A stretch of 51,810 nt of DNA from a virus. The stretch spans positions 1-51,810 of IMG/VR virus record IMGVR_UViG_3300021375_001646; one strand, given 5' to 3'. The notes beneath the pieces were generated by a model, which worked only from the letters and a program-made list of their open reading frames with translations, had not been told where the DNA came from and did not search any database. How positions within the stretch are numbered: position 1 is the first letter of the stretch; each line of letters begins with the position of its first letter. Shown here piece after piece: positions 6,483 through 50,603 of this stretch. Both the position numbers and the translations under genes were made by a program.

Positions 6483-6672
6483 TACGTTCTATCTCCATAA
6501 GTTGTTGTAACCTTGCTGGCCACAATTCTATTTCTCTATGTTGTTCTTCTGTATGTGGAGGTTCAGGACAATCTGGAAGGAATTTAATAACGTGATCAAA
6601 TCTTTCAGGAATATCGTCCCAAGAATTAACTGTTACCTGTTTACCATCTATTAGAAAAACAAACTCGTGCAT
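6466..6672 (-). CDS. hypothetical acidic protein, leaderless start (68 aa)
   Basis: This is a 68-residue protein beginning MHEFVFLIDGKQVTVNSWDD and ending in a charged helix. Its ATG (6672) is exactly 5 nt after the late element AATAAATA and has no Shine-Dalgarno. That fits a leaderless late mRNA that also carries the PAAR gene. Such a short protein next to PAAR could be a chaperone or adaptor for the spike, but this is a guess. Confidence 0.65.
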   Translation of the reverse strand: MHEFVFLIDGKQVTVNSWDDIPERFDHVIKFLPDCPEPPHTEEQHREIELWPARLQQLMEIERNASNN

Positions 6673-6677
6673 ACGAG

Positions 6678-6685
6678 TATTTATT
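6678..6685 (-). promoter_or_regulatory. late promoter element AATAAATA (leaderless type)
   Basis: The element is followed by CTCGT and then the ATG of the gene starting at 6672. The 5-nt gap puts the predicted start of transcription on the A of ATG. Confidence 0.65.
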
Positions 6686-6997
6686 TTACTTTACTTTTAG
6701 ATTTGGCGGTGCAGTTACTATATTTGATGTTTGTTGTTGATAGAGATCTGCAAACTGTTTAATAGTTTTAGTAAGAACCATTATACTTTCTTTTTTAAAC
6801 AAATAGCCTTTGTCTGGATCACCTGTAAATAAGAACTGTTGTAATCCTAACCCTTGTCCGTTCATTACAAGTGTAAGAGGAGTTTTAATCTTAAAACCCT
6901 TTTCATTTTCTTCTGTAAGTTTACCTACAATCTCTTCGCCAGAGTTAAGTTTAAAAGTAACAGTATCTCCAACTTTATATGGTGCTTCGATTAACAT
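6686..6997 (-). CDS. Sm/LSm-like small beta protein (103 aa)
   Basis: The N-terminus KVGDTVTFKLNSGEEIVGKL followed by a second strand region (GFKIKTPLTLVMNGQG) resembles the Sm1 strand pattern of LSm/Hfq-like barrels. The assignment rests on the pattern only. The C-terminal half is helical and polar. It is adjacent to glutaredoxin, with a 1-nt overlap of its start and the upstream stop. The role is unknown. Confidence 0.55.
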   Translation of the reverse strand: MLIEAPYKVGDTVTFKLNSGEEIVGKLTEENEKGFKIKTPLTLVMNGQGLGLQQFLFTGDPDKGYLFKKESIMVLTKTIKQFADLYQQQTSNIVTAPPNLKVK

Positions 6998-7248
6998 TAT
7001 ATTGTGTGTCCTGTTCCGTTATAACCTGTGTCATCAATGTAGTTTACAAGTTGATCATACCCACCAATATTTTTTCCATTGATTTTAATTTGTGGTACAG
7101 TTCTTGCAGTTGGAAACCATTCCATTAATTCTTCTCTAGTGTAGTCAGTTCCTAAAGATTTGTATGTGTGTTCAAGTTGTCTTGTCTTACACAGATTTAC
7201 TGCTTTAACACAATACGGGCAACTTGGCTTTCCGAATATTTCGATCAT
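6997..7248 (-). CDS. nrdC: glutaredoxin (83 aa)
   Basis: A typical glutaredoxin of 83 residues with the redox motif CPYC at residues 10-13 (EIFGKPSCPYCVKAV), the cis-Pro motif RTVPQIKINGK and the GGYDQL glutathione-binding segment. It would reduce the phage ribonucleotide reductase. It overlaps the nrdB stop by 4 bp and is co-transcribed with nrdB and nrdA. The symbol nrdC follows T4 usage. Confidence 0.93.
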   Translation of the reverse strand: MIEIFGKPSCPYCVKAVNLCKTRQLEHTYKSLGTDYTREELMEWFPTARTVPQIKINGKNIGGYDQLVNYIDDTGYNGTGHTI

Positions 7249-8378
7249 AGTTTGAAGTCCTTAAATGTATCTTTGTTAATGTCTTGTTTAACACCGCCAA
7301 CGATATAACTTTCAACTTCTGTTTCTTGTGGGGCAACTTGTAGTCCTGCACTTGACAACCAATGTTGTGTCCACGGTAGCGGATTAGTATTAAGCGGACG
7401 ATCGTAAATCATATCAAGTCCTAGTGCTTTCAATCTCTTGTTAGCAATAAACTCAACATAAGCATGAAGAAGATTAGCATTAAGTCCAATCATACTTCCG
7501 TCTTTGAATAAGTAGTCCGCCCAATTCTTTTCTTCTGCAACACATTCACGCCATAGGTCATAAACTTCATCTTTAAGTTCTACTGCGATTTTAGCCATGT
7601 CTGGATCATCGTCACCTTTGGCCCAATGTTTGAGAATGTGTGTACTTAGGTTAAGGTGTGTTGCTTCATCTCTTGCAATAAGACTAATAATCTTAGCACT
7701 ACCTTCCATCATTTTTAATTCACCAAATGCAAACGTACATGCAAATGAAACATAAAAACGTAAACCTTCTAAAATGTTTACAGTCATCATTGCTTTGTAT
7801 AATGCTTTCTTAACATCATACAAAGTACCTTTGCCTTTATTAAAGTAATTGTTTGCAATGTCATTGAACTCGTCATAGTATTTTGTAACACTTTCAGCAC
7901 GTTCAAGAATCTTTTCATCATCAAGGATAGTATCAAATACTTCACCCGGATTAGCATATACATTTTTTACAATATGTGTATATGAACGTGAGTGGAGTGT
8001 TTCAAAAAAGTCCCAAGCAATAATACAACCTTCTAGTTCTGGATTTGAACAGTAAGGTAAAAAACTTAGACATGGTCCACGTCCTTGTACACTATCTAAT
8101 AGTGTTTGATATTTTAAGTTACTTGTAAAAATATGTTTTTGTTCATCACGAAGTTGTTGATAGTCACCTCTATCTTTTTGTAGACTAACTTCCTCTGGTC
8201 TCCAAAAGTAACCAAGCATTGTTTGGTTAAGTTTATCATACTCAGGATATTTGAATACATCATACCTTTGTGTGTTTTGATCTGCTCCAAAGAACATATG
8301 CTCTTTTGTAAAGTCAACCTTCTCTCGGTTAAAAACTGTCTTTGTCATCGCTTTAGTATTACCCTTCTTCCTCGTCAT
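7245..8378 (-). CDS. nrdB: ribonucleotide reductase class Ia small subunit (377 aa)
   Basis: This protein houses the di-iron/tyrosyl radical cofactor. Family features visible include the helix with AWDFFETLHSRSYTHI, the metal-ligand segment IARDEATHLNLS and the E/H residues around LEGLRFYVSFACTF. The C-terminal tail (KQDINKDTFKDFKL) is the short peptide that binds NrdA. Its length is normal. The first ATG lies 4 nt after AAGGA; a second ATG 11 codons in is an alternative. It lies between nrdA and glutaredoxin in one operon and makes deoxyribonucleotides for phage replication. Confidence 0.96.
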   Translation of the reverse strand: MTRKKGNTKAMTKTVFNREKVDFTKEHMFFGADQNTQRYDVFKYPEYDKLNQTMLGYFWRPEEVSLQKDRGDYQQLRDEQKHIFTSNLKYQTLLDSVQGRGPCLSFLPYCSNPELEGCIIAWDFFETLHSRSYTHIVKNVYANPGEVFDTILDDEKILERAESVTKYYDEFNDIANNYFNKGKGTLYDVKKALYKAMMTVNILEGLRFYVSFACTFAFGELKMMEGSAKIISLIARDEATHLNLSTHILKHWAKGDDDPDMAKIAVELKDEVYDLWRECVAEEKNWADYLFKDGSMIGLNANLLHAYVEFIANKRLKALGLDMIYDRPLNTNPLPWTQHWLSSAGLQVAPQETEVESYIVGGVKQDINKDTFKDFKL

Positions 8379-8384
8379 AAATCC

Positions 8385-16574: not shown

Positions 16575-16906
16575 TAACGTTTCCTTTTTTGTACTTTTGC
16601 TCTCTTAGGTGCTTTCGCTTTATTCTTACTTAATACTGCTCTACTTACTCCAGAACCTCGTTTGGTAAACATTGATTTCTTTGCCGCCATAGAAGGTGCT
16701 TTGGATCTAGTAACAGTCATTGTCTTTTTCTTTTGTGCATCGATTGGTGCATGACATGTAGACATCTTTGCAACAATACGTCCTTTACGTGGACCACTTA
16801 CACATCTAAACTTACGTGAAATTTGACCTTTGTGTGAGCCACCTGGCTTACCACCTCGACCAAAGATAAACTTACCACCTGCTTCTGTTACTTCAAAAAT
16901 TCTCAT
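16574..16906 (-). CDS. Lys/Arg-rich DNA-binding-type virion protein (110 aa)
   Basis: It starts MRIFEVTEAGGKFIFGRGG and is very basic, ending RAKVQKRKR. The core RKFRCVSGPRKGRIVAKMST with a C...C pair is closely similar to the neighbouring gene, so the two are tandem paralogues. The charge suggests that it binds phage DNA inside the head. It overlaps the upstream paralogue by 4 bp (ATGA). Confidence 0.65.
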   Translation of the reverse strand: MRIFEVTEAGGKFIFGRGGKPGGSHKGQISRKFRCVSGPRKGRIVAKMSTCHAPIDAQKKKTMTVTRSKAPSMAAKKSMFTKRGSGVSRAVLSKNKAKAPKRAKVQKRKR

Positions 16907-17178
16907 CTTCTATTCAACGTCTTCAATGCTCTAGATGCTGGGTTTGTACGTTTAGTACGTTTGGCCTTACGCATCATTCTTTGTCCAAGTTTCTTGCGTG
17001 TAATACGCATCTTCATCTTGGCTTGTATATTTGGTGGAGCAAAACATTGTTGTGCTTTAGCCACAATACGTCCATGACGCTTGCCGCCAGTACAACGGAA
17101 CTTACGAACGAGGGCTTTGCCTTTTCGTCCCCAAATTTGCTTCTCCGTGAGATCGTTAAAAAGTTCTAGTATCAACAT
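16903..17178 (-). CDS. Lys/Arg-rich paralogue, leaderless start (91 aa)
   Basis: The start MLILELFNDLTEKQIWGRKG is placed at 17178 because that ATG is exactly 5 nt after the late element ACTAAATA; no Shine-Dalgarno exists. The core RKFRCTGGKRHGRIVAKAQQ matches the downstream paralogue. The C-terminus is strongly basic (MRKAKRTKRTNPASRALK). It probably leads a late operon of internal, DNA-associated proteins. Confidence 0.65.
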   Translation of the reverse strand: MLILELFNDLTEKQIWGRKGKALVRKFRCTGGKRHGRIVAKAQQCFAPPNIQAKMKMRITRKKLGQRMMRKAKRTKRTNPASRALKTLNRR

Positions 17179-17183
17179 ACTAG

Positions 17184-17191
17184 TATTTAGT
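17184..17191 (-). promoter_or_regulatory. late promoter element ACTAAATA (leaderless type)
   Basis: It is followed by CTAGT and the ATG at 17178, so transcription is predicted to start at the start codon. Confidence 0.65.
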
Positions 17192-17528: not shown

Positions 17529-17536
17529 GTTATTTA
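17529..17536 (-). promoter_or_regulatory. late promoter element TATAAATA
   Basis: A perfect T4-type element that also overlaps the stop of the next upstream gene. The transcript leader contains a small CCCTT-AGAGA-AAGGG-type hairpin before the 17428 start. Confidence 0.6.
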
Positions 17537-17941
17537 TACAACTTCAACGGTAATATTGGAATTACCTTTGTTGTTCACTATAAACATTTTTGGGTTAGGC
17601 ACAGTTTCAGTTAAACTACCAGTTATAGGTACTAGTTCTAAATCTTGCTTTAATAGTCCTACAGGGTCGTTTTTATCATCGTAATAAGCATCCGCATGGT
17701 CAACGTCAAATTCGTATGTCCAAACTTTGTGTTCACCTTTGTATTTTGTTCCAAACTCGCCATTTACATTACGTGTTTCCAAATATGGGTCGGCGTTGAG
17801 ATTGATTAAATTACGCAAGGCAATAACTTGTTGTAACGTTTGAAAATTGTGTTGTTGATTGAGTTTGAGATCGTCACCTTGCCCTTTGCGTCTTACGTCT
17901 GTGCGGGTGATGTCAATCAATGTTTTAATACGTATTTTCAT
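17534..17941 (-). CDS. hypothetical virion-type protein, leaderless start (135 aa)
   Basis: The start MKIRIKTLIDITRTDVRRKG at 17941 is exactly 5 nt after the late element GGTAAATA; an ATG two codons earlier overlaps the element. The protein has helical (NFQTLQQVIALRNLINLNAD) and beta (KVWTYEFDVDHADAYYDDKN) parts and looks like a structural or tail-associated protein. No family was assigned. Confidence 0.6.
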   Translation of the reverse strand: MKIRIKTLIDITRTDVRRKGQGDDLKLNQQHNFQTLQQVIALRNLINLNADPYLETRNVNGEFGTKYKGEHKVWTYEFDVDHADAYYDDKNDPVGLLKQDLELVPITGSLTETVPNPKMFIVNNKGNSNITVEVV

Positions 17942-17946
17942 ACACA

Positions 17947-17954
17947 TATTTACC
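17947..17954 (-). promoter_or_regulatory. late promoter element GGTAAATA (leaderless type)
   Basis: It is followed by TGTGT and ATG at 17941. Confidence 0.6.
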
Positions 17955-17960: not shown

Positions 17961-17991
17961 AAAAAAAGGGTGCCGTAAAAACGACACCCTT
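17961..17991 (-). terminator. intrinsic terminator after the 18012-18347 gene
   Basis: On the minus strand, GGGTGTCG ... CGGCACCC forms a strong stem followed by seven T. It isolates the abundant-type protein gene upstream from the next gene. Confidence 0.85.
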
Positions 17992-18913: not shown

Positions 18914-19789
18914 TTAACGTTTTGCTAGTTTTGCTCTATTATGTACTTGTTTTAACAAGTTTACGTATCCTGGACCTGCTTTTATAATGTCATTTACAAT
19001 ACGCATAACAGGAGCATATGCTTGTGCAAAACGTGGAGGAATACCTAAGCCTCTACTTGTCATGCTTAATACTTTGTATGCAAAAGGCAAGTCTTTATTA
19101 GGTACACCTAATAGTCTTAACATCTGTATATCTTTTGTGTCTGCTAGTACAGGATCACTAACACTTACTGTTGGCTCAGTGTCTCTAACTTGTGAACTTT
19201 CTAGGTCATAGTCTTTAACAAACAACACATAATAGTCAACTATGTCTGAGTTACGTCCTCTTGCTTTTAAAGCCATTTCTAATTCAGTAACTGCTTTACG
19301 CTTTTCTGTTGGAGTTAGTCTTCCGTAATTTGCAATACGTCTACGCAATCCACTGTAGCGACTGTTGGATAACCCATTGTCTATTTTTAACAAGTCGTTT
19401 GCATCTGCATAACTTGGATTGCTGTTAGTATAACTTCTTAACAATCTTTTTGCAGTTAGTGTAGGAAATGTAAAACGCTTACGCAACATCTTTGCTGATC
19501 TTGGGTCTTTTAGTTTTTCTATAATACGTTCATCGCCATCAATAATGTTTAACAAACAATGTAAGTCATTAGCACTACTTCTAAAGTTATTCCAGTTTTG
19601 CCATTTAAGTACTTGTTCACTGTATAACTTTGCAAAGCGTCTGCTTGGATAATGACGCATTACGTGTAATGCTAAAAAGTATAGTAGTACTAGATCAGAG
19701 GCATCAGTAAACGTTAATCTACTAACGCCATCTGAGTTGCGAATCATTTTGCCTTCTGTGATAAAATCTAAAAACTTAAACTCTGACAT
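18914..19789 (-). CDS. hypothetical helical protein (291 aa)
   Basis: The N-terminus MSEFKFLDFITEGKMIRN resembles the short x-F-x-x-F-I-x-E-type targeting segment of T4-like packaged proteins. The rest is helical and basic, with a leucine-rich first half and KVLSMTSRGLGIPPRFAQAY near the C-terminus. It overlaps the ligase-fold gene by 1 nt and is co-transcribed with it. Its function is unknown. Confidence 0.6.
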   Translation of the reverse strand: MSEFKFLDFITEGKMIRNSDGVSRLTFTDASDLVLLYFLALHVMRHYPSRRFAKLYSEQVLKWQNWNNFRSSANDLHCLLNIIDGDERIIEKLKDPRSAKMLRKRFTFPTLTAKRLLRSYTNSNPSYADANDLLKIDNGLSNSRYSGLRRRIANYGRLTPTEKRKAVTELEMALKARGRNSDIVDYYVLFVKDYDLESSQVRDTEPTVSVSDPVLADTKDIQMLRLLGVPNKDLPFAYKVLSMTSRGLGIPPRFAQAYAPVMRIVNDIIKAGPGYVNLLKQVHNRAKLAKR

Positions 19790-21024
19790 TAACCAAAGTC
19801 CTTAGGAGTAGTAAAGTTTCTGCGACTGAACTCAAGTCTATCAACAATCTTAACTGCTCCACCTGTATGATCAATTGCTACATAGCCTTCAGGTGAGCCT
19901 GCTTCATAGCCATCTGCTGTTTTATAAAAGTGTGCAATGCTTTCAATGTTGTTAAGTTTAGTAATAAAAATTTTCTTTAGGTTTGTAATCTCAGTCATAA
20001 AAATAATAATGCCTGACAAGCCTTTTCTGTTTGTGTTAATAAAGTTCATATTGTTTTGAATCTTTTGTAATCTATTTTTAACTGCTGGTTTCTCTGGATC
20101 TTGATTTTTAAGTTTTGCAATCTCACCTTCAATTCTTTCCTTGTACCAATCAATAAAGCCGTTTAAAAATTCGCCTGGATCGCCTGCTAGTTTACCTTGT
20201 CTAATATTTGTGTTAATCCAAATCTTAAAGTTTTTAATAAAATCATCATTTGATTTCATTGCTTCCCATACTGCATTTGGTACTGCTTTATAAGCCCCCA
20301 TTGCATCTGCCAAATCTTTTTTCACTTGTGCTGTTTCATCTTTTGTCATTAGCACTGAACCTGAAACGTCTTTAAAGAATGCATCGTCAAACCAAACATC
20401 GTTTGAACGTTTTAAGTTACTAACATTAACATCATAGTTTGCTGTTGCATCTGCTAATGTATTGCCTTCGTAGTTTGTATGAAAGACAATACCAAACTTT
20501 GCATTTCCAATACGCTTACCAATGTCGCTGTCTACTGGTACTGCATATGTAATAAGTTGTGGTTTGAAAGTGTACATCTTTTCGCCGTCAATTTCTTCTT
20601 CACGTCTTGAACTATCGTCAAACATAAAGTCGCCTTGTAGTACGCCTGTAATTCCTAGTTTGCTAAGATAATCATATGCTAGATGTAACTTTGATACTGC
20701 ACCTGACTCTCCGTATAGTCTGTCAATTTCTTCATGACTAGTTCCTAGTTTAGGACTAGCATTAAACACACCCTTTGTTCCTACAAAGAATTTTTTACTC
20801 TCAGGATCAACTCCGCATACGATTGCAGGAGCACCATCCCATTTTACACTTACTCTTAACTTTTTGTTAGTACGGCCTTTGAGCATATCTGCAAACAACA
20901 TCATTTGATTGATTGCATATTCAGCCCCTTCTTTACCACGGTTGAGTGCTTCTTCCTCAACGTGTTCCATATGTGTGTTCTTACCCTCGGCTTCTTGTAG
21001 CCTTATAATGTCTTCAATTAACAT
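19789..21024 (-). CDS. ligase-fold nucleotidyltransferase-like protein (411 aa)
   Basis: It begins MLIEDIIRLQEAEGKNTHME. At about residue 58 it has VSVKWDGAPAIVCG, a K-x-D-G motif I of covalent nucleotidyltransferases (DNA/RNA ligases, capping enzymes). Further possible motifs are GVLQGDFMFDD (IIIa-like), FGIVFHTNYEG (IV-like) and GYVAIDHTGGAVKIVDR (V-like, with the lysine). The spacing is compatible with an adenylation domain, although the usual E in motif IV is not certain. I recall such proteins as an uncharacterised family (DUF6267-type) in T4-like marine phages. Its substrate is unknown and it is distinct from the bona fide DNA ligase at 44-45 kb. Confidence 0.65.
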   Translation of the reverse strand: MLIEDIIRLQEAEGKNTHMEHVEEEALNRGKEGAEYAINQMMLFADMLKGRTNKKLRVSVKWDGAPAIVCGVDPESKKFFVGTKGVFNASPKLGTSHEEIDRLYGESGAVSKLHLAYDYLSKLGITGVLQGDFMFDDSSRREEEIDGEKMYTFKPQLITYAVPVDSDIGKRIGNAKFGIVFHTNYEGNTLADATANYDVNVSNLKRSNDVWFDDAFFKDVSGSVLMTKDETAQVKKDLADAMGAYKAVPNAVWEAMKSNDDFIKNFKIWINTNIRQGKLAGDPGEFLNGFIDWYKERIEGEIAKLKNQDPEKPAVKNRLQKIQNNMNFINTNRKGLSGIIIFMTEITNLKKIFITKLNNIESIAHFYKTADGYEAGSPEGYVAIDHTGGAVKIVDRLEFSRRNFTTPKDFG

Positions 21025-28907: not shown

Positions 28908-29396
28908 TTACTTGCCTTCCATTAACGCTACTGCTTTATCATAATCTTCACGACTAACGATTTCTTCACGTAATAGTTTTTCTCTGTTTGCTAGATGTTT
29001 CATAGCAATTTCTTCTTTACTTCCGCCAAAGTATGCAACTGCATGTCCTTCTTCAACAAGAATATCTGTTACTAGTTCTGCTGGTTGATTTTCCCAACGC
29101 TCTACTTTGAAGTCTCCTAGGATACGTCCGAACTTGCCTTTCATATCTTCGCCTTTACGATCTTCAGTAGTAATAAGTTTACCACCGTCCTTCATAAGTT
29201 CTTTGAGTCTTGCTTTAGCGGCTTCGCCAAACAAGTCTTCTACTTTATCTCTTGTGCGTGACTCAGGCGTATCAATGCCCATAATGCGTACACGTTCGTC
29301 TGTTAGGGTTACTCCGAACCCTAAGTCAATGTCTACATCTACTGTATCACCATCAACTACTTTAATGACTTTTACATCATACTCGTTGGTATTCAT
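28908..29396 (-). CDS. staphylococcal-nuclease-like endonuclease (162 aa)
   Basis: SNase motifs are visible: VVDGDTVDVDIDLGFG, RVRIMGIDTPESRTRD (with the catalytic Arg and Asp positions), GEAAKARLKELM and KFGRILGDFKV. These are the calcium-binding Asp and catalytic Arg regions of thermonucleases. No signal peptide is visible, so a cytoplasmic role (host DNA degradation or recombination) is likely. A late element (AATAAATA) and GAGGAG precede the ATG. Confidence 0.88.
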   Translation of the reverse strand: MNTNEYDVKVIKVVDGDTVDVDIDLGFGVTLTDERVRIMGIDTPESRTRDKVEDLFGEAAKARLKELMKDGGKLITTEDRKGEDMKGKFGRILGDFKVERWENQPAELVTDILVEEGHAVAYFGGSKEEIAMKHLANREKLLREEIVSREDYDKAVALMEGK

Positions 29397-29443
29397 ACTC
29401 TCGCTCCTCTTTTATTATGTGTGTATTTATTGGTTAGGAACTA

Positions 29444-29923
29444 TTATGTCCAGGGTCGACCTGTTACAAGTCCACCTGTGTTAGCATTATTAACTAACGT
29501 GCCTGAATCGTTGTTACTTGCTGTGTAAAGCGTAGGCAAGTCGTTTTTGGTTTTTGTATTCAATGCTCTGTAATATGTTGCATTAGTATCTGCGGCCGCT
29601 AGTCCTTTACGTTTGCTAACAGCAATTCTTAGTTTTTCTTCTTGTCGTTGTCTTTTGAACCCAGTTACTCCTGAGTATCTAGGAATACAATAAACTCTAT
29701 CACCGTCAACTAAACCTGCGGCTGTAAGTGTGCTGGCACCATCATTTGTTTGATTTATAGTAGTATCTTTAACAGCGTGTATTTCTGCATACATTGCAGT
29801 AACAATCTCCTGTCCTTCAACAGCCTGTGCAAGTGCTGTAAGTCCGTTCATTGTAGTCGTTCCCATAGTAACAGTAAGATCAAACTCTACACCTGTAAGT
29901 CCTTTACATCTAATTGTTGCCAT
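29444..29923 (-). CDS. putative virion structural protein (159 aa)
   Basis: It begins MATIRCKGLTGVEFDLTVTM. It is Thr/Ala-rich and beta-like in its first half, with a basic helix GFKRQRQEEKLRIAVSKRKG and a Thr/Asn-rich tail. AAGGAG and a late promoter lie upstream. The composition suggests a virion surface protein; no family was recognised. Confidence 0.6.
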   Translation of the reverse strand: MATIRCKGLTGVEFDLTVTMGTTTMNGLTALAQAVEGQEIVTAMYAEIHAVKDTTINQTNDGASTLTAAGLVDGDRVYCIPRYSGVTGFKRQRQEEKLRIAVSKRKGLAAADTNATYYRALNTKTKNDLPTLYTASNNDSGTLVNNANTGGLVTGRPWT

Positions 29924-29945
29924 TTGTTACTCCTTGTTATAATAC

Positions 29946-29957
29946 TATTTATAAATA
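29946..29957. promoter_or_regulatory. two overlapping divergent late promoters
   Basis: TATTTATAAATA contains TATAAATA on both strands, sharing four bases. One points at 29923 (minus) and one at 29974 (plus). Only one polymerase could use it at a time. Confidence 0.7.
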
Positions 29958-30276: not shown

Positions 30277-30495
30277 TTATTTGTATCTAAAGGTTACTCT
30301 GCCTTTGGTAAGATCATAAGGCGATACTTCTACTTTAACTTTGTCGCCCATTAGCACTCTAATCTTATTCTTTTTCATTCTACCTGCCGTATAGGCTATG
30401 ATTGTATGACCGTTATCTAGTTGTACTTTGTACATTTGGTTTGGTAATGTATCTAAACATGTACCATCTAATTCTATTATGTCGTCTTTACTCAA
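30277..30495 (-). CDS. infA: translation initiation factor IF-1, TTG start (72 aa)
   Basis: From the TTG at 30495 the product is 72 residues, the same as bacterial IF-1. It reads [18 protein letters not shown], then [34 protein letters not shown] and [15 protein letters not shown], all IF-1 signature segments of the OB fold. The TTG overlaps the stop codon of the DUF3050 gene, with GGAGAAAG upstream, so translation is coupled. IF-1 binds the ribosomal A site during initiation. A phage copy could bias initiation toward phage mRNAs, including leaderless ones. Confidence 0.93.
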
Positions 30496-32687: not shown

Positions 32688-33789
32688 TGCTCACCTCTAG
32701 TAATGGAACAACATTGCTTGTTCCTGTTTTTAATAATCCGTAATCTGTTATTTTCCATCCAACTTTAGTTAGTTGATGATAATATTTGTGTTGTGCATTT
32801 AGAAGATCAATTGGTATAAAGTTATAGTTGTGATTAACTTTAACATTATTTGAAACCCATTTAAAATAATCAAAATAATCTTTGTTTGCTTGTATGTCTA
32901 ATACATTTTGATTGTTGTTTACCCATTTGGTATACAAATCTACTTTGCCTTGTATCATATCACTTAGGTGTTTAGTAGCATCAAACTCTTTGAATTGATG
33001 ATAGGGTCTGTTGTTTACATCAATACTTTCTATAAGTGTAAGAAAGAATCCGTTGTGTTGTAGATAATTACTTTCTCTACACACATAGAATACATCACTG
33101 TCAAAACTTGCAATGTGTTCTGCTTGTGGAATGTCTGTGTCTAGTTTCTTTGTAACTTCATTAAAGTCATGATGTGAACAAGTGTAACCTATTCCGTTAT
33201 CTTCAACCCACTTGCTTAACAAGTCAAGACTGTTGTTGTCCTGTGTTGTTAAAATAAACTTTATCTTTTGTATTCCGTTACGCTCATTAAGTTCTTTGAG
33301 CATAGCAAATATTTCTGTCTTATTAACTTTGTCTAGCCAACCTGTGCTAAAACTAATCTCTTGTATCTTTGTATCTGCAGATAGTTCATTAACAAACAAC
33401 GGTTGTGTTCTAATAAAGTTATTATCAGTCATGCTTCCCCAAATGAATCTATGACTGTTTTGTTTGTACCAATCATATAAATGCGTTTGTTCATGCTTCA
33501 TCCAAAACAAATCATCAATGTTACTAATATGTTTGAAGTGTTCAAATACTTTAGTCCACTGTTGTTCTATGTCTGTGTTGATCTCTTTGGGTATAAAGTT
33601 TTTAAAATAAGGCATTGCTTCCTTAAAATGCTTTTCAGTATAGCATACTTTACAACCAGCAAAACAATTATATCTACCTAATACACTAAAGATAACTTCA
33701 TTGTGTACATTAAGCAAAGAATCGTTTTCATAAAAATACTGTATGAAACTATTTCTATTTGGTGCCGGTGTGTCTACTATTCTATCCAT
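32677..33789 (-). CDS. divergent radical-SAM-like enzyme B (370 aa)
   Basis: The start MDRIVDTPAPNRNS at 33789 is chosen for the TAATG overlap with the upstream stop and AGGA before it. Near residue 40 it has NCFAGCKVCYTE, matching C-x3-C-x2-C. The rest of the barrel is weakly conserved and no C-terminal SPASM cysteines are visible. It is probably a reduced or specialised radical-SAM partner of enzymes A, C and D, or it may lack activity. Confidence 0.72.
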   Translation of the reverse strand: MDRIVDTPAPNRNSFIQYFYENDSLLNVHNEVIFSVLGRYNCFAGCKVCYTEKHFKEAMPYFKNFIPKEINTDIEQQWTKVFEHFKHISNIDDLFWMKHEQTHLYDWYKQNSHRFIWGSMTDNNFIRTQPLFVNELSADTKIQEISFSTGWLDKVNKTEIFAMLKELNERNGIQKIKFILTTQDNNSLDLLSKWVEDNGIGYTCSHHDFNEVTKKLDTDIPQAEHIASFDSDVFYVCRESNYLQHNGFFLTLIESIDVNNRPYHQFKEFDATKHLSDMIQGKVDLYTKWVNNNQNVLDIQANKDYFDYFKWVSNNVKVNHNYNFIPIDLLNAQHKYYHQLTKVGWKITDYGLLKTGTSNVVPLLEVSNDS

Positions 33790-34877
33790 TATATTCCTAC
33801 CCATTCAAACACTGAGTCTTTTTGCTGTAGTTTGTAACAATAAGCAATACTTGCATCAACCATTTGATAAAACTGTATACAACTAGTTCCAGGTGGTCGA
33901 TCAAACATCTTATATAGATATTTAAGTCCGCAACTATCTTTACTTGGACAGTTATAACATTCAGATCGTATTAGGTTCTTTTCGTCTTGTTGTCTATATA
34001 ACTCTGGTGTATACTCTAATGTACCATCAGTCCATTGCCCTACTCTAAATTCATTTCGTTTGTATTCTAAAAAGTCATACTCAGGATAAATGTATCCATC
34101 TGGTGACAGTATCATCTTGTGATGGTTGTCATAGTAAAACTTATCTATAGCACTTAGGTTTCCGTATATACCATCTACATAAATGTTAATACGTTTAGTA
34201 TAAAGTATTGTAATAAACTGTAAGAAGTTATCAAACCATTCACCTAAATGAATATCATCAATAATAACTTCAAACTTTCGAGCACCACGCTTGTGTCTTA
34301 ATGGTATAAGATTAATTGTATTACATTTTGTCTTTTGACAAGTCCTAATAATTTCTGTAATAACATCTAAATTAAAACAACGTTTATCATCTGTAGGCAT
34401 AACATATTGCCATTGCATAGTAGCACCGCATTCGTGTATGATGTTTGCCATCTCTACAACATCGACATACTCTCTGTTTTGTTTTTGAAATGCAAAATCG
34501 TAGGATATTGTAAACTTTATATATGGTCCCCATTTCTTTAAGAACTCTTTGTTCTCTGCAATAAGACTACCATTAGTAGTAATACAAAACTTTCTATCTG
34601 TATTTTTAATATACTTGTCAAACAATTTTGTAAACAAGTCGTCCATTCTGCTTATGAATAGGAAAGGCTCGCCGCCATGCACACTGATGATATCTAAACC
34701 TTTGCAGTGAGGCATTGTTTTATCAAAGAAGTCTACAACAAGATCAACCCAAGCATGTTTAAGGGTTTGCCCTCCGACATCTTTAGCAATATATTCTCTA
34801 TCACAATAGGAACAATCAAAATTGCATGTGTTTCCTAAATAGACTGAAATATGTTTTAGTTTATCAAGACCATCCAT
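33789..34877 (-). CDS. radical-SAM/SPASM-type enzyme C, predicted leaderless (362 aa)
   Basis: CNFDCSYC is near residue 18, with ISVHGGEPFLFISRMDDL (GGE motif) at 64 and CITTNGSLI at 97. The C-terminus has CYNCPSKDSCGLKYLYKMF and a later TSCIQFY, a truncated SPASM/twitch pattern. The ATG is 6 nt after TATAAT of a TTGCTC-17-TATAAT promoter, so it may be leaderless. It overlaps the next gene as TAATG. Confidence 0.9.
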   Translation of the reverse strand: MDGLDKLKHISVYLGNTCNFDCSYCDREYIAKDVGGQTLKHAWVDLVVDFFDKTMPHCKGLDIISVHGGEPFLFISRMDDLFTKLFDKYIKNTDRKFCITTNGSLIAENKEFLKKWGPYIKFTISYDFAFQKQNREYVDVVEMANIIHECGATMQWQYVMPTDDKRCFNLDVITEIIRTCQKTKCNTINLIPLRHKRGARKFEVIIDDIHLGEWFDNFLQFITILYTKRINIYVDGIYGNLSAIDKFYYDNHHKMILSPDGYIYPEYDFLEYKRNEFRVGQWTDGTLEYTPELYRQQDEKNLIRSECYNCPSKDSCGLKYLYKMFDRPPGTSCIQFYQMVDASIAYCYKLQQKDSVFEWVGI

Positions 34878-34883
34878 ACTACT

Positions 34884-34912
34884 ATTATAACATCTTTTTA
34901 GTTGCCGAGCAA
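34884..34912 (-). promoter_or_regulatory. internal promoter before radical-SAM gene C
   Basis: TTGCTC (34907-34912), 17 bp, TATAAT (34884-34889), then 6 nt to the ATG. It lies across the stop of gene D and would start a leaderless mRNA for C, B, A, DUF3050 and infA. Confidence 0.55.
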
Positions 34913-37926: not shown

Positions 37927-38304
37927 CTACGAAGCATTGTCTTCCCAGTTATGAACATGGCCTCTTAAACTATTAATAGCATTTCGAATATCGTTGTGTT
38001 TTCCTGCTGTTATAGTACTATTCGTAGACGGATCTGCTGGGGTTGCTGTTAGTGATGCCGGATCAACCGTATCAGTTGCCTCTGATCCTGAGCCTGTATT
38101 ACCAAAAGTTTTACTTGCCGCTAAATCAACTACTGTATGGTTGTGATCCGTGATATCTGCATAGTAGTCCAAAAGTGTTTGAACTGCTGATCTTGTTATA
38201 ATATCACCTGCTTCAAAACTAGTCAACAACGTGTCAATTTGAGCCGTTGTATAAGTTATTCCGCCTGCGTTACTACTTGTTTCTGTTCTCTGTTCTGCCG
38301 CCAT
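37927..38304 (-). CDS. hypothetical virion-type protein, leaderless start (125 aa)
   Basis: The start MAAEQRTETSSNAGGITYTT at 38304 is exactly 5 nt after the late element GATAAATA. It is Thr/Asp/Ala-rich with DITDHNHTVVDL and INSLRGHVHNWEDNAS. The D-H-N-H and H-V-H motifs look like metal-binding loops of fibre proteins. It is probably a virion component. Confidence 0.6.
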   Translation of the reverse strand: MAAEQRTETSSNAGGITYTTAQIDTLLTSFEAGDIITRSAVQTLLDYYADITDHNHTVVDLAASKTFGNTGSGSEATDTVDPASLTATPADPSTNSTITAGKHNDIRNAINSLRGHVHNWEDNAS

Positions 38305-38309
38305 ACTAA

Positions 38310-38317
38310 TATTTATC
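38310..38317 (-). promoter_or_regulatory. late promoter element GATAAATA (leaderless type)
   Basis: It is followed by TTAGT and ATG at 38304. It overlaps the stop of the upstream gene. Confidence 0.65.
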
Positions 38318-39251
38318 AAACTACCACGATAGTTTTTTGTAGTGATAGGTTAACATGTTGAAAATCAAAGTAAGCATTTGCCATTATTTTAAACTGTACC
38401 CAGCCTACTGTGCTATTATCTACGTCAAACATATAATAATTGCCATCTTTTTTCCAATCCATATTACTTCTTACTTTAAGTGTAATATCATCACGGTTGA
38501 TTAGTGTTTGGTTGAATTCATCTTGTGTAAATCTTACTGCTCTACTTTGCCCAAAAGGATCTATACCTACTTGTGCTTTTCTAGCATTAATCATATCATG
38601 TCCAATCTTAACACAATCTTTATAACTTGGTTGAATAATGAACTCACGTAAACTAATATCATGTTGTTCTAATGTTCTTATCATCCAGTCATTGTTTATA
38701 ATTGTATTAATCATCTGTGGCATTTCAACCATAGTATTATTAGCAATCATATAATAAGTGTCTACAATTCCTTTGATTGGTAACATTACAAAATACGAAA
38801 AGAAATCAACAGACTCGCCTGTGCTAATTGTTTCACCTGTTTCTAAATCAATTAAACTATCGTCATCAAAGTTTCTACCATAAAACTTTGCTCTTTCTAG
38901 TGTAAGTCTTTTGTTGAAAGGTTCGTTAAGAATAGTACCGTAAGTAATAAACTTTTCTGTATTGCTGTTTTGACTGTGTAACATTTCTACACATTTGTCT
39001 AAGAATATACTGTTGCCAAATACACTTTCATCGTTGTCAAATGATCCTATGTGTATAGCATTATCACTTGCAAACAATTTATATTTTGCAGGGTCGCTTC
39101 GTTGCCAAAGTTTAAATCTAGGCTGTCGTTGTATAATATTACTCTCAACTCTTGTTTTGGTCATTACAAGTCTAGAGTTTAAATGTGTTTGGATATCAAC
39201 CCAATTTCGAGTTGGTGCCACATCCAAGTAGTCAATCAGTAGTCGCTTCAT
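38316..39251 (-). CDS. putative virion protein, leaderless start (311 aa)
   Basis: The ATG at 39251 is exactly 5 nt after the late element TGTAAATA. The start is MKRLLIDYLDVAPTRNWVDI. The C-terminal part (TLKVRSNMDWKKDGNYYMFD ... VQFKIMANAYFDFQHVNLSL) resembles the end of the 327-residue protein at 36712. It is the first gene of the late unit that continues through small virion-type genes into the radical-SAM block. Confidence 0.6.
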   Translation of the reverse strand: MKRLLIDYLDVAPTRNWVDIQTHLNSRLVMTKTRVESNIIQRQPRFKLWQRSDPAKYKLFASDNAIHIGSFDNDESVFGNSIFLDKCVEMLHSQNSNTEKFITYGTILNEPFNKRLTLERAKFYGRNFDDDSLIDLETGETISTGESVDFFSYFVMLPIKGIVDTYYMIANNTMVEMPQMINTIINNDWMIRTLEQHDISLREFIIQPSYKDCVKIGHDMINARKAQVGIDPFGQSRAVRFTQDEFNQTLINRDDITLKVRSNMDWKKDGNYYMFDVDNSTVGWVQFKIMANAYFDFQHVNLSLQKTIVVV

Positions 39252-39256
39252 AAGTA

Positions 39257-39264
39257 TATTTACA
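39257..39264 (-). promoter_or_regulatory. late promoter element TGTAAATA (leaderless type)
   Basis: It is followed by TACTT and ATG at 39251. Confidence 0.6.
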
Positions 39265-40833: not shown

Positions 40834-41642
40834 TGAATAAGAGTGTAGTAGACAGAGTAACATTAAAAGCATACGATCAAGATCAGATTAGAAAAGACTT
40901 TGAACAAAAGATACTTCCTAATATGCCCCGCAAGGTTCCATTGTTGAATGCAACTTTGCCAACTAATGCAGACGATCATCATATGTTATATACACATCGT
41001 CCTGAACTAGAAGATTATGTTAAGGACACAATATTCGAAGACATACTAATGGACTTGCCTTTCAAGAGAGGTAGAGCAACATTCATTCATCAACTTCCTG
41101 GAATGACTTTACGTTTTCACAGAGACCCTGATGACAAGTATCACATAGCAATTAATGATCCGCCAGGTGCTTTCTTTTTTGATATGGAATTGCAAACAGG
41201 ATATAGAGTACCTTGTGATGGACACTTGTATAAACTAAACACTGCGGCAAGATATCATACTGCCGTAAATGCAGATTGTAAAGACAGAACACATCTTGTT
41301 ATTTGTCCTTACTTCTTTGAAGACGATTTTAATAAGCCAACTACAACTGCAACCTTTGGATTTGATCACGGCAATGCAACTATGCCTGATGTGTTTACAA
41401 GTATAGCAACTCCAAACAATAGTATTGAACAAGGTTTCTGTGTTGAATGGATTGCTTCAGTGTTTCACGATCCAACATGCAAGAACATTTGGGGAGAGAA
41501 TACAAGTTCGGGACGTAGATATCATATTGAATTTACAGATGCAAACAATTTAGAAAATGTAATGACTAGTGCTTTGAACTTAGAAGCAACTCATGCCATG
41601 GAACAGTTTGGTATATCAGTCGAAAATAATTTTACTAATTAA
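40833..41642 (+). CDS. 2-oxoglutarate/Fe(II) Asp/Asn-hydroxylase-like protein (269 aa)
   Basis: The double-stranded beta-helix core shows LRFHRDPDDKYHIAINDPPG (H-x-D) and ARYHTAVNADCKDRTHLVIC (distal His and Arg), the typical metal and 2OG ligands. The layout resembles aspartyl/asparaginyl beta-hydroxylases, though divergent. It could hydroxylate a protein or an amino acid. It is coupled to the 114-residue gene. Its 3' end overlaps the convergent MaoC-like gene by 8 bp. Confidence 0.75.
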   Translation: MNKSVVDRVTLKAYDQDQIRKDFEQKILPNMPRKVPLLNATLPTNADDHHMLYTHRPELEDYVKDTIFEDILMDLPFKRGRATFIHQLPGMTLRFHRDPDDKYHIAINDPPGAFFFDMELQTGYRVPCDGHLYKLNTAARYHTAVNADCKDRTHLVICPYFFEDDFNKPTTTATFGFDHGNATMPDVFTSIATPNNSIEQGFCVEWIASVFHDPTCKNIWGENTSSGRRYHIEFTDANNLENVMTSALNLEATHAMEQFGISVENNFTN

Positions 41643-41970
41643 GTTTTATAGTAGTCATTTCTATTGTTTGCTTAACACTATCCCCAACAGAAATAGTAAT
41701 ATGGTTAACACAAACTCTTGACTTCTCTTTAAGTACATGATGTTTAATATCGATTGTATCACCTATGTACACTGCATTATGATACCTTACGTTTAGTTTT
41801 GCTAACGCCCAATAAGGTTTAGGATTACGTGTGATCATAGCAGTAACTAGAATACCAGGAGCAACTGGATCTCCATACTTTATAGTATCTTCTTCGTGGT
41901 GTATTGGATTGGTGTCTTCAATAACATCACAATATCTTTTAACTAGATCGGGTGTGATTTCTATCTTCAT
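41635..41970 (-). CDS. MaoC-like hot-dog enoyl/3-hydroxyacyl hydratase, leaderless start (111 aa)
   Basis: The hydratase-2 motif is present: YCDVIEDTNPIHHEEDTIKY then GDPVAPGILVTAMITR, containing the catalytic Asp and His (D-x-N-x-x-H). Its length of 111 residues is on the short side for MaoC (about 130-150). It would add or remove water on acyl-thioesters. The ATG is exactly 5 nt after the late element GTTAAATA. It is divergent from the hydroxylase at 42010. Confidence 0.8.
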   Translation of the reverse strand: MKIEITPDLVKRYCDVIEDTNPIHHEEDTIKYGDPVAPGILVTAMITRNPKPYWALAKLNVRYHNAVYIGDTIDIKHHVLKEKSRVCVNHITISVGDSVKQTIEMTTIKLN

Positions 41971-41975
41971 AAAAC

Positions 41976-41983
41976 TATTTAAC
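41976..41983 (-). promoter_or_regulatory. late promoter element GTTAAATA (leaderless type)
   Basis: It is followed by GTTTT and ATG at 41970. Confidence 0.6.
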
Positions 41984-41996
41984 TGCCTCTAGCCCT

Positions 41997-42004
41997 AGTA
42001 AATA
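41997..42004 (+). promoter_or_regulatory. late promoter element AGTAAATA (leaderless type)
   Basis: It is followed by CATTT and ATG at 42010. It forms a divergent pair with the element at 41976-41983. Confidence 0.6.
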
Positions 42005-42009
42005 CATTT

Positions 42010-42531
42010 ATGAAACAGCAAGACTTTATCCAAAACTTATTAGACAACACACAAGAAATCTTTGATGAATATAAAAATTGTAGACACAGAGATATTCCAT
42101 TACCTGATTGGAAGGAAGAACAAGAAGTGCATTTGCATTGGAGGGCATTACCAATATGGTGGGTACAAAAACCTTGTAAGCCTGTGCAGAAAGCATTACC
42201 ATTAACAACAAAACTATTAACAGATGGTCCTGGACACAGAGCAACTGCATGGGTTAAGTTAGAAAGTCATAGTAAGACTCCGCAACATGCTCATCATGAT
42301 TGGGGTAATAAGATTATACTTCATTTGCCTATGATAGTACCTGACGGTGATGTAGGCTTTTGGGTTGATGGAAATATTCACAGATGGAAAGTAGGAGAAC
42401 TATTTGCTTTCAAAAGCAATCAAGAACACTACGGATTTAATAACACAGACGAAACTAGAGTAATGCTTGTTATGGAGTTTGATGATACTTGGGAACAGAC
42501 GTTGCGTCCTTATATGACAGTGACTCCTTAG
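42010..42531 (+). CDS. aspartyl/asparaginyl beta-hydroxylase (173 aa)
   Basis: A clear Asp/Asn hydroxylase core: LESHSKTPQHAHHDWGNKI, ILHLPMIVPDGDVGFWVDG, HRWKVGELFAFKSNQEHYGF then NNTDETRVMLVMEF. It shows the H...H and distal Arg ligands of the 2OG family, with the usual missing Asp at position 2. Animal and bacterial relatives hydroxylate Asp/Asn side chains in proteins. It is a separate unit with a leaderless start. The 3' end overlaps the desaturase gene on the opposite strand by 62 bp. Confidence 0.85.
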   Translation: MKQQDFIQNLLDNTQEIFDEYKNCRHRDIPLPDWKEEQEVHLHWRALPIWWVQKPCKPVQKALPLTTKLLTDGPGHRATAWVKLESHSKTPQHAHHDWGNKIILHLPMIVPDGDVGFWVDGNIHRWKVGELFAFKSNQEHYGFNNTDETRVMLVMEFDDTWEQTLRPYMTVTP

Positions 42532-43252
42532 TCCACCCAAACAAACTAACAAGTCTTCCACTTGGATCCCACATATTGTAGTTTAACTTCATAGGACCAT
42601 AATGATGTGTTCCGTGTAAACATTCACTAAAAGCAAAAGGCCAAAATAATTTATTGTCAACTGGCTTACCTTTCTTGTGTAATGCTACATTAACAAAGAA
42701 GTTGATCAGTATAATACTTAAAGCAACAGGAGTTGCCCATATAGTTAAGAACCATTGTAGTCCTAGTGTATTATAAACTATTGCAAATAATAATAGATTA
42801 AAAGTAATTGCAATAATACCTTCCCACTTACCTATACTAATAAAATAAGGAACACGTAGTCTATCAGCAACACGTTTTGGATCTATCTTTTCAAACCTCC
42901 ACAATGATGAAGTAACATACCAAACACCTTTGTGTTTAGGAGAGTGTGGATCATTTTCTGTATCTGTATATTTGTGATGTTGTCTGTGCAAAGCCGCATA
43001 TCCAATTGGGTTACCTGACAATGCAAAAACACTTATTGTTGATAATGCTTTTTGTAACCAACTAGGCGGAGACCACAGTTCATGTGATGCCCATCTATGT
43101 AAGAATAACCCTTGTACAACATCTGCTAGGAACCAATACATACCTACTGCTAACAATGCATTTACCCATGTAAGATTATAGATCCACACAGGTAGGAATG
43201 CACAATATATAAAAAATATAATAATTGTAGATATACGATTGAACCTGTCCAT
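42470..43252 (-). CDS. fatty-acid desaturase, acyl-CoA delta-9 type, leaderless start (260 aa)
   Basis: This is an integral membrane di-iron enzyme. All three histidine boxes are present: HRWASH, HRQHHKYTDTENDPHSP and HGTHHYGP, with four membrane helices around them. The pattern matches acyl-CoA/acyl-lipid delta-9 desaturases. It is a little shorter than usual (~300). Its ATG is exactly 5 nt after the late element ATTAAATA. It would add double bonds to host membrane fatty acids, perhaps increasing fluidity during infection. Confidence 0.93.
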   Translation of the reverse strand: MDRFNRISTIIIFFIYCAFLPVWIYNLTWVNALLAVGMYWFLADVVQGLFLHRWASHELWSPPSWLQKALSTISVFALSGNPIGYAALHRQHHKYTDTENDPHSPKHKGVWYVTSSLWRFEKIDPKRVADRLRVPYFISIGKWEGIIAITFNLLLFAIVYNTLGLQWFLTIWATPVALSIILINFFVNVALHKKGKPVDNKLFWPFAFSECLHGTHHYGPMKLNYNMWDPSGRLVSLFGWTKESLSYKDATSVPKYHQTP

Positions 43253-43257
43253 AACGG

Positions 43258-43265
43258 TATTTAAT
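43258..43265 (-). promoter_or_regulatory. late promoter element ATTAAATA (leaderless type)
   Basis: It is followed by CCGTT and ATG at 43252. Confidence 0.65.
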
Positions 43266-49901: not shown

Positions 49902-50123
49902 CTATGAATAGTCTTTGAGAGGTCCTCCATACTTTTGTGCCTTTACTTTTCTGCCTCGTAGAACTTTGCCTTTGGGACCTTTTTTACCTGACTGGCGGGC
50001 ACGTAGTCCTTGAGCCACACATGAACTTTGATCTGATGATCCTAGTTTAACTGTGCTTTGACATTTGCTCCGAGGAGTTTTTCCTCTTTCCTCTATGTCT
50101 CTTGTGAACTCTAGTATACGCAT
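49902..50123 (-). CDS. basic small protein with MRILEF N-terminus, leaderless start (73 aa)
   Basis: The ATG at 50123 is exactly 5 nt after the perfect late element TATAAATA. The product starts MRILEFTRDIEERGKTPRSK, then has a Cys pair (CQSTVKLGSSDQSSC) and a Lys/Gly-rich tail GKKGPKGKVLRGRKVKAQKY. It shares the MR-I-x-E start with the internal-head-type proteins near 16 kb. A DNA-associated virion role is plausible. Confidence 0.65.
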   Translation of the reverse strand: MRILEFTRDIEERGKTPRSKCQSTVKLGSSDQSSCVAQGLRARQSGKKGPKGKVLRGRKVKAQKYGGPLKDYS

Positions 50124-50128
50124 GTGTG

Positions 50129-50136
50129 TATTTATA
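50129..50136 (-). promoter_or_regulatory. late promoter element TATAAATA (leaderless type)
   Basis: It is followed by CACAC and ATG at 50123. Confidence 0.7.
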
Positions 50137-50361
50137 CTATCTGTACTTGTCTGCGGGATTTTTGCCTCTGCTTTCAAATTCTTCTTCTACAAGTTTGAAA
50201 GTAAGAGCATTGCGTTCACCTTTGGTTGTCTTGAGTACTACATCTCCACTTGAGGCTACTTCTATTTTTGTAATCTTGGCTCTGCTGTTTCTAAACTTGC
50301 CCACCATGATTTCCTGTCCAACTTCTAGATGTATGGACACTTGTTTGGGTGATGTACTCAT
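50137..50361 (-). CDS. hypothetical small beta protein (74 aa)
   Basis: The start MSTSPKQVSIHLEVGQEIMV at 50361 has AAGGAG upstream. The beta-rich part VSIHLEVGQEIMVGKFRNSR, AKITKIEVASSGDVVLKT could be an OB or SH3-like barrel. The C-terminus is charged. No family was recognised. Confidence 0.6.
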   Translation of the reverse strand: MSTSPKQVSIHLEVGQEIMVGKFRNSRAKITKIEVASSGDVVLKTTKGERNALTFKLVEEEFESRGKNPADKYR

Positions 50362-50371
50362 TGTTTGCTCC

Positions 50372-50590
50372 TTAGTGAAGTGTGTCGTCCTTGGTAGGTC
50401 GTCCTTCAAAATATAGTTCTGTGGTTTGTCCTAGCCTTGCTTCAAAGTATTCTATAACATGCTCTATGCGTTCAGCAGTTAGTAGACTGGTGCTAGTACC
50501 TTTGTCGATGAGAATCTCGTATTGTTCTTGAAGAGTGTCTAGTTCTTCTTGGAAAAGTTCTGCAACTGATACTGTTTCATACTCGGCCAT
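50372..50590 (-). CDS. hypothetical acidic helical protein, leaderless start (72 aa)
   Basis: A Glu-rich helical protein (VAELFQEELDTLQEQYEILI). The ATG at 50590 is exactly 5 nt after the late element GGTAAATA. Function unknown. Confidence 0.6.
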   Translation of the reverse strand: MAEYETVSVAELFQEELDTLQEQYEILIDKGTSTSLLTAERIEHVIEYFEARLGQTTELYFEGRPTKDDTLH

Positions 50591-50595
50591 AGTAA

Positions 50596-50603
50596 TATTT
50601 ACC
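50596..50603 (-). promoter_or_regulatory. late promoter element GGTAAATA (leaderless type)
   Basis: It is followed by TTACT and ATG at 50590. It touches the stop of the upstream gene. Confidence 0.55.

Follow-up and report, generated by a model that had tools for sequence, protein, structure and literature searches.

Ten window genes start 5 nucleotides after a putative late promoter core

We analyzed a stretch of viral DNA of 51,810 nucleotides (nt) with 36% G+C, comprising positions 1 to 51,810 of IMG/VR record IMGVR_UViG_3300021375_001646 and referred to below as the window. Ten of its open reading frames (ORFs) carry the hexamer TAAATA, which matches the core of the phage T4 late promoter, exactly 5 nt before an ATG (Table 1). 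A first-pass annotation of the same DNA had listed these ten starts and proposed that they belong to leaderless late messenger RNAs (mRNAs); direct reading of the window letters confirmed every one of the sites, as well as its statement that the last spacer base is T in nine of the ten. Nine sites are on the minus strand and 42010 alone is on the plus strand, where it diverges from 41970 with just 39 base pairs (bp) between the two ATGs. The full T4 box, TATAAATA, was present at one site (50123) and ATAAATA at three of the ten, and the common element is therefore TAAATA. For 17178, 38304, and 50123 the longest ORF opens at an upstream TTG, and for 17941 it opens at an ATG overlapping the TAAATA element.

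An exact scan of the window for TAAATA-N5-ATG returned these ten places and none besides, compared with 1.80 expected, and 0 of 100 dinucleotide-preserving shuffles reached ten. The same kind of scan found no TAAATA-N6-ATG (1.54 expected). All ten cases of TAAATA lying at most 10 nt from an ATG ORF of at least 45 amino acids (aa) were at 5 nt; the next gaps were 11 and 13 nt, both within the nrdA frame, followed by gaps of at least 16 nt, where four sites have AAGGAG, as the first-pass annotation had noted for the more distant copies of the element. Such a spacing could in principle arise by chance from A+T-rich sequence or from the stop-start overlap of packed genes, given the 36% G+C of the genome and the stop codon TAA contained in TAAATA. 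The shuffles and the absent 6-nt gap argue against this, as do permuted hexamers of the same letters, which gave at most 5 matches at 4-8 nt in the window compared with 10 for TAAATA, and the orthologues described below, which retain the gap although their spacer letters differ. We consider the probability of a chance origin practically negligible, and for the lineage as a whole the shuffles and permuted hexamers rule out composition as the cause. TAAATA by itself was depleted in the window (48 copies, 83 expected), as if selection acted against stray late promoters.

The 5-nt spacing recurs in relatives and in phage HTVC008M

Relatives were gathered through a conserved protein of unknown function (19789-21024), the DNA ligase, and two terminases. 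Eight relatives, T4, HTVC008M, and Syn9, followed by G045 and Melnitz-1, were taken whole, nine of these sequences being uncultivated contigs. ATG ORFs of at least 50 aa with TAAATA exactly 5 nt upstream numbered 10 in the window, 12 in HTVC008M, 16 in G001, 17 in G003, 12 in G004, 12 in G009, 6 in G020, 10 in G010, 9 in G028, 7 in G023, and 20 in G045, compared with 3 in T4, 0 in Syn9, and 3 in Melnitz-1. The 20 genes of G045 were accompanied by none at 0-4, 6, or 7 nt; G003 and G045 share their terminase and do not count as independent. Permuted hexamers reached up to 10 at a single distance in one whole genome, that of HTVC008M, partly because shifted hexamers overlap TAAATA.

In the window relatives and HTVC008M, the distances formed one narrow peak, at 5 nt or in some cases over 4-8 nt, and a separate broad one at about 16-32 nt with Shine-Dalgarno sequences, whereas T4 and Syn9 had only the leadered peak, with its mass at about 20-30 nt. 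No 5-nt peak was seen in T4, Syn9, RM378, phiM12, or KVP40. The exact TAAATA-N5-ATG string occurred 0 times in RM378 and in phiM12 and twice in KVP40, where the reversed control also gave 2. Its counts were not clearly above control in P-SSM2, S-PM2, Melnitz-1, C48C1, and DLP6. The distance-to-ATG count that the first-pass annotation had put forward as a check, run on whole genomes against controls, thus returned a 5-nt peak in the relatives and HTVC008M and none in T4 or Syn9. The 5-nt spacing class is common to several lineages of T4-related marine phages, a wider distribution than that annotation had claimed.

Annotated starts and orthologues

In HTVC008M, all 17 ATGs found 4-8 nt after TAAATA (12 at exactly 5) are annotated coding sequence starts, and 8 of the 17 belong to annotated virion genes (Table 1). 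The terminase gene also uses the element, at 5 nt in G003 and G020 and at 4 nt in G010. We compared orthologue pairs for 131 query genes at 5 nt, excluding matches that started past query residue 10 or exceeded 95% identity. At 50-95% identity, 82 of 98 pairs had the partner at 5 nt, 4 at 4 nt, 1 at 7 nt, and 1 at 3 nt, while 6 partners were leadered and 4 had no motif; the pairs are not independent because they were counted in both directions. Orthologues in T4, Syn9, and Melnitz-1 were at 5 nt in 4 of 20 cases. An earlier comparison used 104 query genes at 5 nt, with T4, Syn9, and G023 as targets only.

Start-covering orthologues were available for four of the ten window genes. The 17941 gene was represented at 29 viral loci with 16 distinct upstream sequences, of which 14 have a gap of 5 and 2 a gap of 4, with varying spacer letters. 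Orthologues of 6672 in G001, G004, and G023 are all at 5 nt, as are those of 17178 in the same three genomes, with a weaker G010 match lacking the motif; those of 50123 are at 5 nt in G003 and G004 and at 4 nt in G020. For 38304, 39251, 41970, 42010, 43252, and 50590, no start-covering orthologue was present in the genomes compared: no viral relative was found for the 311-aa product of 39251, the three relatives of the desaturase gene are partial and offer no start to compare, and the weak G009 relative of 50590 begins inside the query and has no motif. Some genes change mode between relatives. The gene at 79858 of G001 is at 5 nt, and its window relative 29396 is leadered, with TAAATA at 27 nt and GAGGAG; the gene at 74950 of G010 is at 5 nt, and its G003 relative has AGGAG with TAAATA at 22 nt.

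These comparisons bear on the possibility that the promoter is real but that an internal start is used, or that a slightly shifted polymerase start leaves a short leader (1-4 nt). Relatives do have gaps of 4, 7, and 8 nt, which would correspond to leaders of 0-3 nt, six of the ten window starts are without orthologue confirmation, and E. coli mRNAs with 5′-terminal AUGs upstream of the normal start are on record (PMC4965119). In the comparison with 104 query genes, however, orthologue similarity usually begins at the predicted ATG or a few codons from it, and the HTVC008M start is the annotated one in 17 of 17 cases. We judge this alternative rather unlikely; it is also partly semantic, as a leader of 1-3 nt would still be functionally leaderless.

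Table 1. Coordinates of the genes and elements in the window and of HTVC008M virion genes that carry the element
Sequence	Feature	Coordinates	Strand	Arrangement
Window	68-aa ORF, phrog_24555, unknown function	6466..6683	-	TAAATA 6678-6683, ATG 6672
Window	91-aa basic ORF, no family	16903..17189	-	TAAATA 17184-17189, ATG 17178
Window	135-aa ORF, no family	17534..17952	-	TAAATA 17947-17952, ATG 17941
Window	Terminator-like hairpin and T tail	17966..17991	-	Directly upstream of 17941 promoter; stem to ATG 24 nt
Window	125-aa ORF, no family	37927..38315	-	TAAATA 38310-38315, ATG 38304
Window	311-aa ORF, no accepted family	38316..39262	-	TAAATA 39257-39262, ATG 39251
Window	111-aa ORF, MaoC-like (PF01575)	41635..41981	-	TAAATA 41976-41981, ATG 41970; divergent from 42010
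Window	173-aa ORF, aspartyl/asparaginyl beta-hydroxylase family (PF05118)	41999..42531	+	TAAATA 41999-42004, ATG 42010
Window	260-aa ORF, fatty acid desaturase family (PF00487)	42470..43263	-	TAAATA 43258-43263, ATG 43252
Window	73-aa basic ORF, no family	49902..50134	-	Full TATAAATA, 5 nt, ATG 50123
Window	72-aa ORF, no family	50372..50601	-	TAAATA 50596-50601, ATG 50590
Window	Radical SAM protein (phrog_1802), sigma70-like leaderless candidate	33789..34889	-	TATAAT, 6 nt, ATG 34877
Window	59-aa ORF, sigma70-like leaderless candidate	50603..50818	-	TTGACA-18-TATTAT (11/12 matches), 6 nt, ATG 50782
Window	Leadered gene, for contrast	29444..29951	-	TATAAATA 22 nt before ATG 29923, AAGGAG between
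Window	Leadered gene, for contrast	28908..29429	-	TAAATA 27 nt before ATG 29396, GAGGAG present
HTVC008M	Tape measure	16007
HTVC008M	DNA end protector	18916
HTVC008M	Head closure	18943
HTVC008M	Baseplate tail tube cap	19456
HTVC008M	Baseplate wedge	31132
HTVC008M	Baseplate wedge	49760
HTVC008M	Head-tail adaptor	59714		8 nt
HTVC008M	Tail completion	75830

Shine-Dalgarno sequences and start codons

For locus counts of spacing, Shine-Dalgarno sequences, and N-termini, a gene was counted once per N-terminal 10-12 residues, in some counts per N-terminus and distance. Shine-Dalgarno-like 4-mers preceded 8 of 134 starts at 4-8 nt compared with 61 of 93 at 15-35 nt in the terminase loci, 7 of 161 compared with 89 of 171 in the ligase loci, 0 of 24 compared with 27 of 39 in close relatives, and 6 of 28 compared with 39 of 60 in HTVC008M terminase relatives; in the far set the corresponding figures were 2 of 18 and 5 of 27. 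The lack of a Shine-Dalgarno sequence that had been reported for the window starts thus extends to the 4-8-nt class in the loci of relatives. Start codons were counted, with a minimum ORF length of 80 aa, in the 191 loci that also served for the initiator signature described below: the 5-nt class comprised 183 ATG, 0 GTG, and 0 TTG starts, compared with 125, 8, and 11 in the leadered class. According to a review, codons other than AUG initiate far less efficiently in E. coli when the mRNA is leaderless, and Caulobacter shows a comparable tendency (PMC9031893).

The second residue was mostly K or R in the leaderless class (76 and 61 of 382, respectively), whereas the leadered late class favored A (60 of 183), and ATGAAA-type starts may favor 5′-terminal initiation. 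The N-terminal pattern M-x-[LI]-x-E-[FLI] was found in 27 of 382 distinct leaderless N-termini, in 0 of 183 leadered late ones, and in 22 of 1689 other Shine-Dalgarno ORFs; about a dozen cases belong to one family, and 17178 and 50123 are the window examples. We take this pattern to be reminiscent of T4 capsid-targeting or gp21-cleaved N-termini.

The predicted transcription start coincides with the ATG

The 8-bp T4 late box, at about -13 to -6, is described as beginning at -13 (PMC2988020), and +1 is therefore the sixth base after TAAATA. We looked for an initiator signature at this position in 191 loci (L002-L032, L082-L161, and L245-L324); the loci left out, L033-L081 and L325-L404, have weaker 5-nt peaks of 10 and 21 genes, respectively. 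Leadered genes, with TAAATA at 18-32 nt and a Shine-Dalgarno sequence (n = 125), have T as the fifth base after the hexamer in 65% of cases, and A or G as the sixth in 60% and 22%. The leadered sites of the window itself (n = 11) have T in 64% and A in 82%, and those of T4 have T in 58% and A in 58%. In the 5-nt class (n = 183), the base before the ATG is T in 72% and C in 26%. The leadered class has no start codon at the sixth base, yet it carries the same T(-1), A/G(+1) signature; since both classes share it at the same distance, the initiator of one is thus the ATG of the other. Both the T4 numbering, with the box counted from -13, and the signature seen in leadered genes accordingly favor placing +1 on the A of the ATG, as first predicted.

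The architecture of the loci was also informative. In 9 of 14 genomes we found twelve divergent gene pairs in which each ATG is at 4-8 nt and the two ATGs are 26-57 bp apart, two of the twelve being the same locus in G003 and G045. In HTVC008M, the divergent region between 18916 and 18943 measures 26 bp. Together with the hairpin 24 nt before the 17941 ATG, these pairs leave little or no space for a leader. We weighed these observations against the possibility that the mRNAs begin further upstream, from another promoter or by processing, and that TAAATA is an A/U-rich translation signal held at a fixed distance. A/U-rich sequence is frequent around the natural starts of phage genes, and the 5′ ends in our proposal are predicted from sequence. 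The same hexamer, however, lies 16-32 nt before Shine-Dalgarno genes, the T(-1), purine(+1) signature is at equal distance in both classes, and neither the divergent pairs nor the hairpin accommodates such a leader readily. An upstream start is in our assessment highly improbable.

A predicted class of leaderless late mRNAs

Taken together, these data suggest that the ten window genes and their counterparts in relatives are very probably transcribed as leaderless mRNAs from a T4-type late promoter, as the first-pass annotation had predicted and as the whole-genome distance distribution supports. This prediction draws on what the sequence shows: the spacing with its conservation and its excess over controls, the almost exclusive use of ATG, the missing Shine-Dalgarno sequence, and the initiator signature. 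In this view, TAAATA would represent a T4-type late promoter core, presumably recognized by host RNA polymerase carrying a late sigma factor of the gp55 type, and RNA synthesis would start at the sixth base after it. As this start base would be the A of the ATG, the mRNA would open with 5′-AUG and have no leader and no Shine-Dalgarno sequence, and translation would proceed by leaderless initiation at the 5′-terminal AUG. Leadered genes with Shine-Dalgarno sequences stand under the same promoter, so one promoter class would supply two translation modes.

Several observations weigh against this proposal. Among orthologue pairs with less than 50% identity, just 36 of 88 were at 5 nt, with 12 at 4 or 6-8 nt, 7 leadered, and 33 without the motif, and G010, G020, and the ligase relatives are spread over 4-8 nt instead of lying sharply at 5. 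T4 has 10 raw occurrences of the string compared with 5 in the reversed control, although just 3 of the 10 precede an ORF that reaches 50 aa, and lowering the threshold to 50 aa brought in one GTG or TTG ORF at 5 nt in each of HTVC008M, G045, G010, and G001. The gp55 family (phrog_234) was not found in G001, G003, G004, G009, G014, G016, G020, or G028, many of these records being fragments, and the gp45-type clamp (phrog_223) was found only in T4, Syn9, and HTVC008M, 3 of 14, in searches that could miss a diverged clamp. Finally, we infer the 5′ ends themselves, and likewise late timing, gp55 recognition, the mode of ribosome initiation, and the host.

Late recognition, sigma70-type starts, and the host

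The gp55 family was detected in 8 of 16 records (G045, G010, G015, G021, G046, HTVC008M, T4, and Syn9), with the matches in G045, G010, G015, and G021 more distant than those in the other four, and HTVC008M gp55 gave no tblastn match in the 51.8-kilobase window fragment. With gp45 in 3 of 14 records and gp55 in 8 of 16, the data favor an element that behaves like a T4 late promoter, and they support use of the whole T4 late machinery for HTVC008M only and not for the closest relatives of the window. With HTVC008M proteins as queries, tblastn identified neither capsid nor portal nor terminase genes of T4 type in the window or in any of G001, G004, and G009, and a gp23 profile search identified none in the latter three. 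The window nrdA and nrdB are 61-71% identical to those of HTVC008M and Syn9, and G001 has a gp44-family clamp loader; PHROG labels were assigned in G001 from 10 of the 35 ORFs that reach 240 aa.

An alternative is a leaderless promoter that is not late, TAAATA being a variant -10 element of the host sigma70 type with activity at other times. Several of the window genes are metabolic (desaturase, MaoC-like, hydroxylase), and the search for gp55 in the closest relatives was negative. Two window starts had been flagged as sigma70-like with 6 nt between the -10 element and the ATG, and both read as described, TATAAT-N6-ATG at 34877 and TTGACA-18-TATTAT at 50782; moreover, TATAAT has a 6-nt peak before ATG in the ligase loci L082-L161 (34 distinct genes), so some of these phages may have sigma70-type leaderless genes too. 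On the other side, TAAATA precedes head, tail, and baseplate genes in HTVC008M, whose annotation includes gp55 and gp33 homologues, as well as terminase genes at 5 or 4 nt in three relatives, and TATAAT-N6-ATG is not above control in G045 or G046, where sigma70 leaderless use as a general rule is not borne out. We regard a sigma70-type promoter active at other times as unlikely.

A habit of the host was rejected as the cause, as TATAAT-N6-ATG occurred 35 times compared with 35 in the control for the bacterial bin G029, and 518 times compared with 410 over 16 genomes of its family. The contig behind the choice of this bin, L244, filed under a Rickettsiales bin, has, however, an nrdB 78% identical to that of the window and neighbor genes in the same order; it is therefore a phage contig and not a pointer to a host, and none of its ATG ORFs has TAAATA 4-8 nt upstream. 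A split (permuted) transfer-messenger RNA (tmRNA) of alphaproteobacterial type (RF01849, 107 bits; RF04321) lies at 4589-5108 on the minus strand of the window, with a 62-aa ORF (4811-4999, minus strand) between its two pieces, and L244 has the same pieces at 3450-3930 with a different, 75-aa ORF between them. The tmRNA type hints at, and no more than hints at, an alphaproteobacterial host for the window phage.

Two gene groups of the window deserve separate mention. The metabolic host-like genes at 41635-43252 (MaoC-like, Asp/Asn beta-hydroxylase family, and desaturase) are all in the leaderless arrangement. Positions 30488-36673 hold a minus-strand gene run with two radical SAM proteins (phrog_1802) and neighbors of unknown function, and for 34898-36673 the phage relatives are distant only.

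Implications for late translation

If the proposal is true, several marine T4-related lineages make a sizeable share of their late proteins from leaderless mRNAs, with Shine-Dalgarno genes alongside. It could then explain the failure to find late promoters in pelagimyophages, would correct gene starts placed too far upstream, at a TTG or an ATG, and would offer initiation studies a large collection of naturally leaderless mRNAs. The leaderless reading is directly testable in HTVC008M, a cultured Pelagibacter phage. More speculatively, one late promoter class might feed two translation channels, Shine-Dalgarno mRNAs with leaders and a large leaderless set including terminase and virion genes, with host ribosomes or initiation factors tilted late in infection toward 5′-terminal AUGs in a virus-wide initiation switch. 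We consider this switch doubtful. Phage bS21, present in 5 of 14 records (G001, G004, G009, G015, and HTVC008M), would be a possible lever in some; as a general cause it was rejected, since G045, G010, and G021 have the spacing without S21.

Comparison with known systems

The element resembles the T4 late promoter (TATAAATA, served by gp55, gp33, and gp45; PMC2988020) in its TAAATA core and in the predicted distance from this core to the start, which would be the sixth base. It departs from T4 in that the first two box letters are not kept in the window sites, and T4 itself has no 5-nt peak, with its 3 ATG ORFs at 5 nt spread over 169 kilobases. A parallel in spacing is HTVC008M, in which the 12 genes at 5 nt, like all 17 in the 4-8-nt range, begin at annotated starts. 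HTVC008M and the window relatives share homologues of CsgF, adenylate/guanylyl cyclase, and bS21; nrdA and nrdB apart, it is related to the window only distantly. For pelagimyophages, a published late-promoter prediction was reported as unsuccessful (PMC7029224). Far-T4 phages (PMC4360716, PMC7198788) are a further point of comparison, as distant homologues of gp23 and gp55 are encoded by G045, G010, G021, and G015. One of the Far-T4 accounts reports T4 core transcription-regulation genes as not detected (PMC4360716). The Far-T4 isolate RM378 has no TAAATA-N5-ATG.

Leaderless genes of Deinococcus-Thermus (PMC12340547) and lambda cI (PMC9031893) are likewise described with a -10 region beside the ORF, no Shine-Dalgarno sequence, and a preference for ATG. 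Those systems use a host promoter, whereas here a phage late-type element would serve many genes, with leadered genes alongside. A transcription study of phage AR9 remarks in passing that phage transcripts are often leaderless (PMC5312081), so leaderless phage mRNAs are not new per se; AR9 is not T4-type, and the leaders reported for it are 26-491 nt (PMC5312081). Among the matches listed in the open-access literature we found no prior description of a leaderless T4-type late spacing, subscription papers and preprints lying outside the search. Late promoters and leaderless genes are both known already, and their predicted combination in these phages would be a variation on the two.

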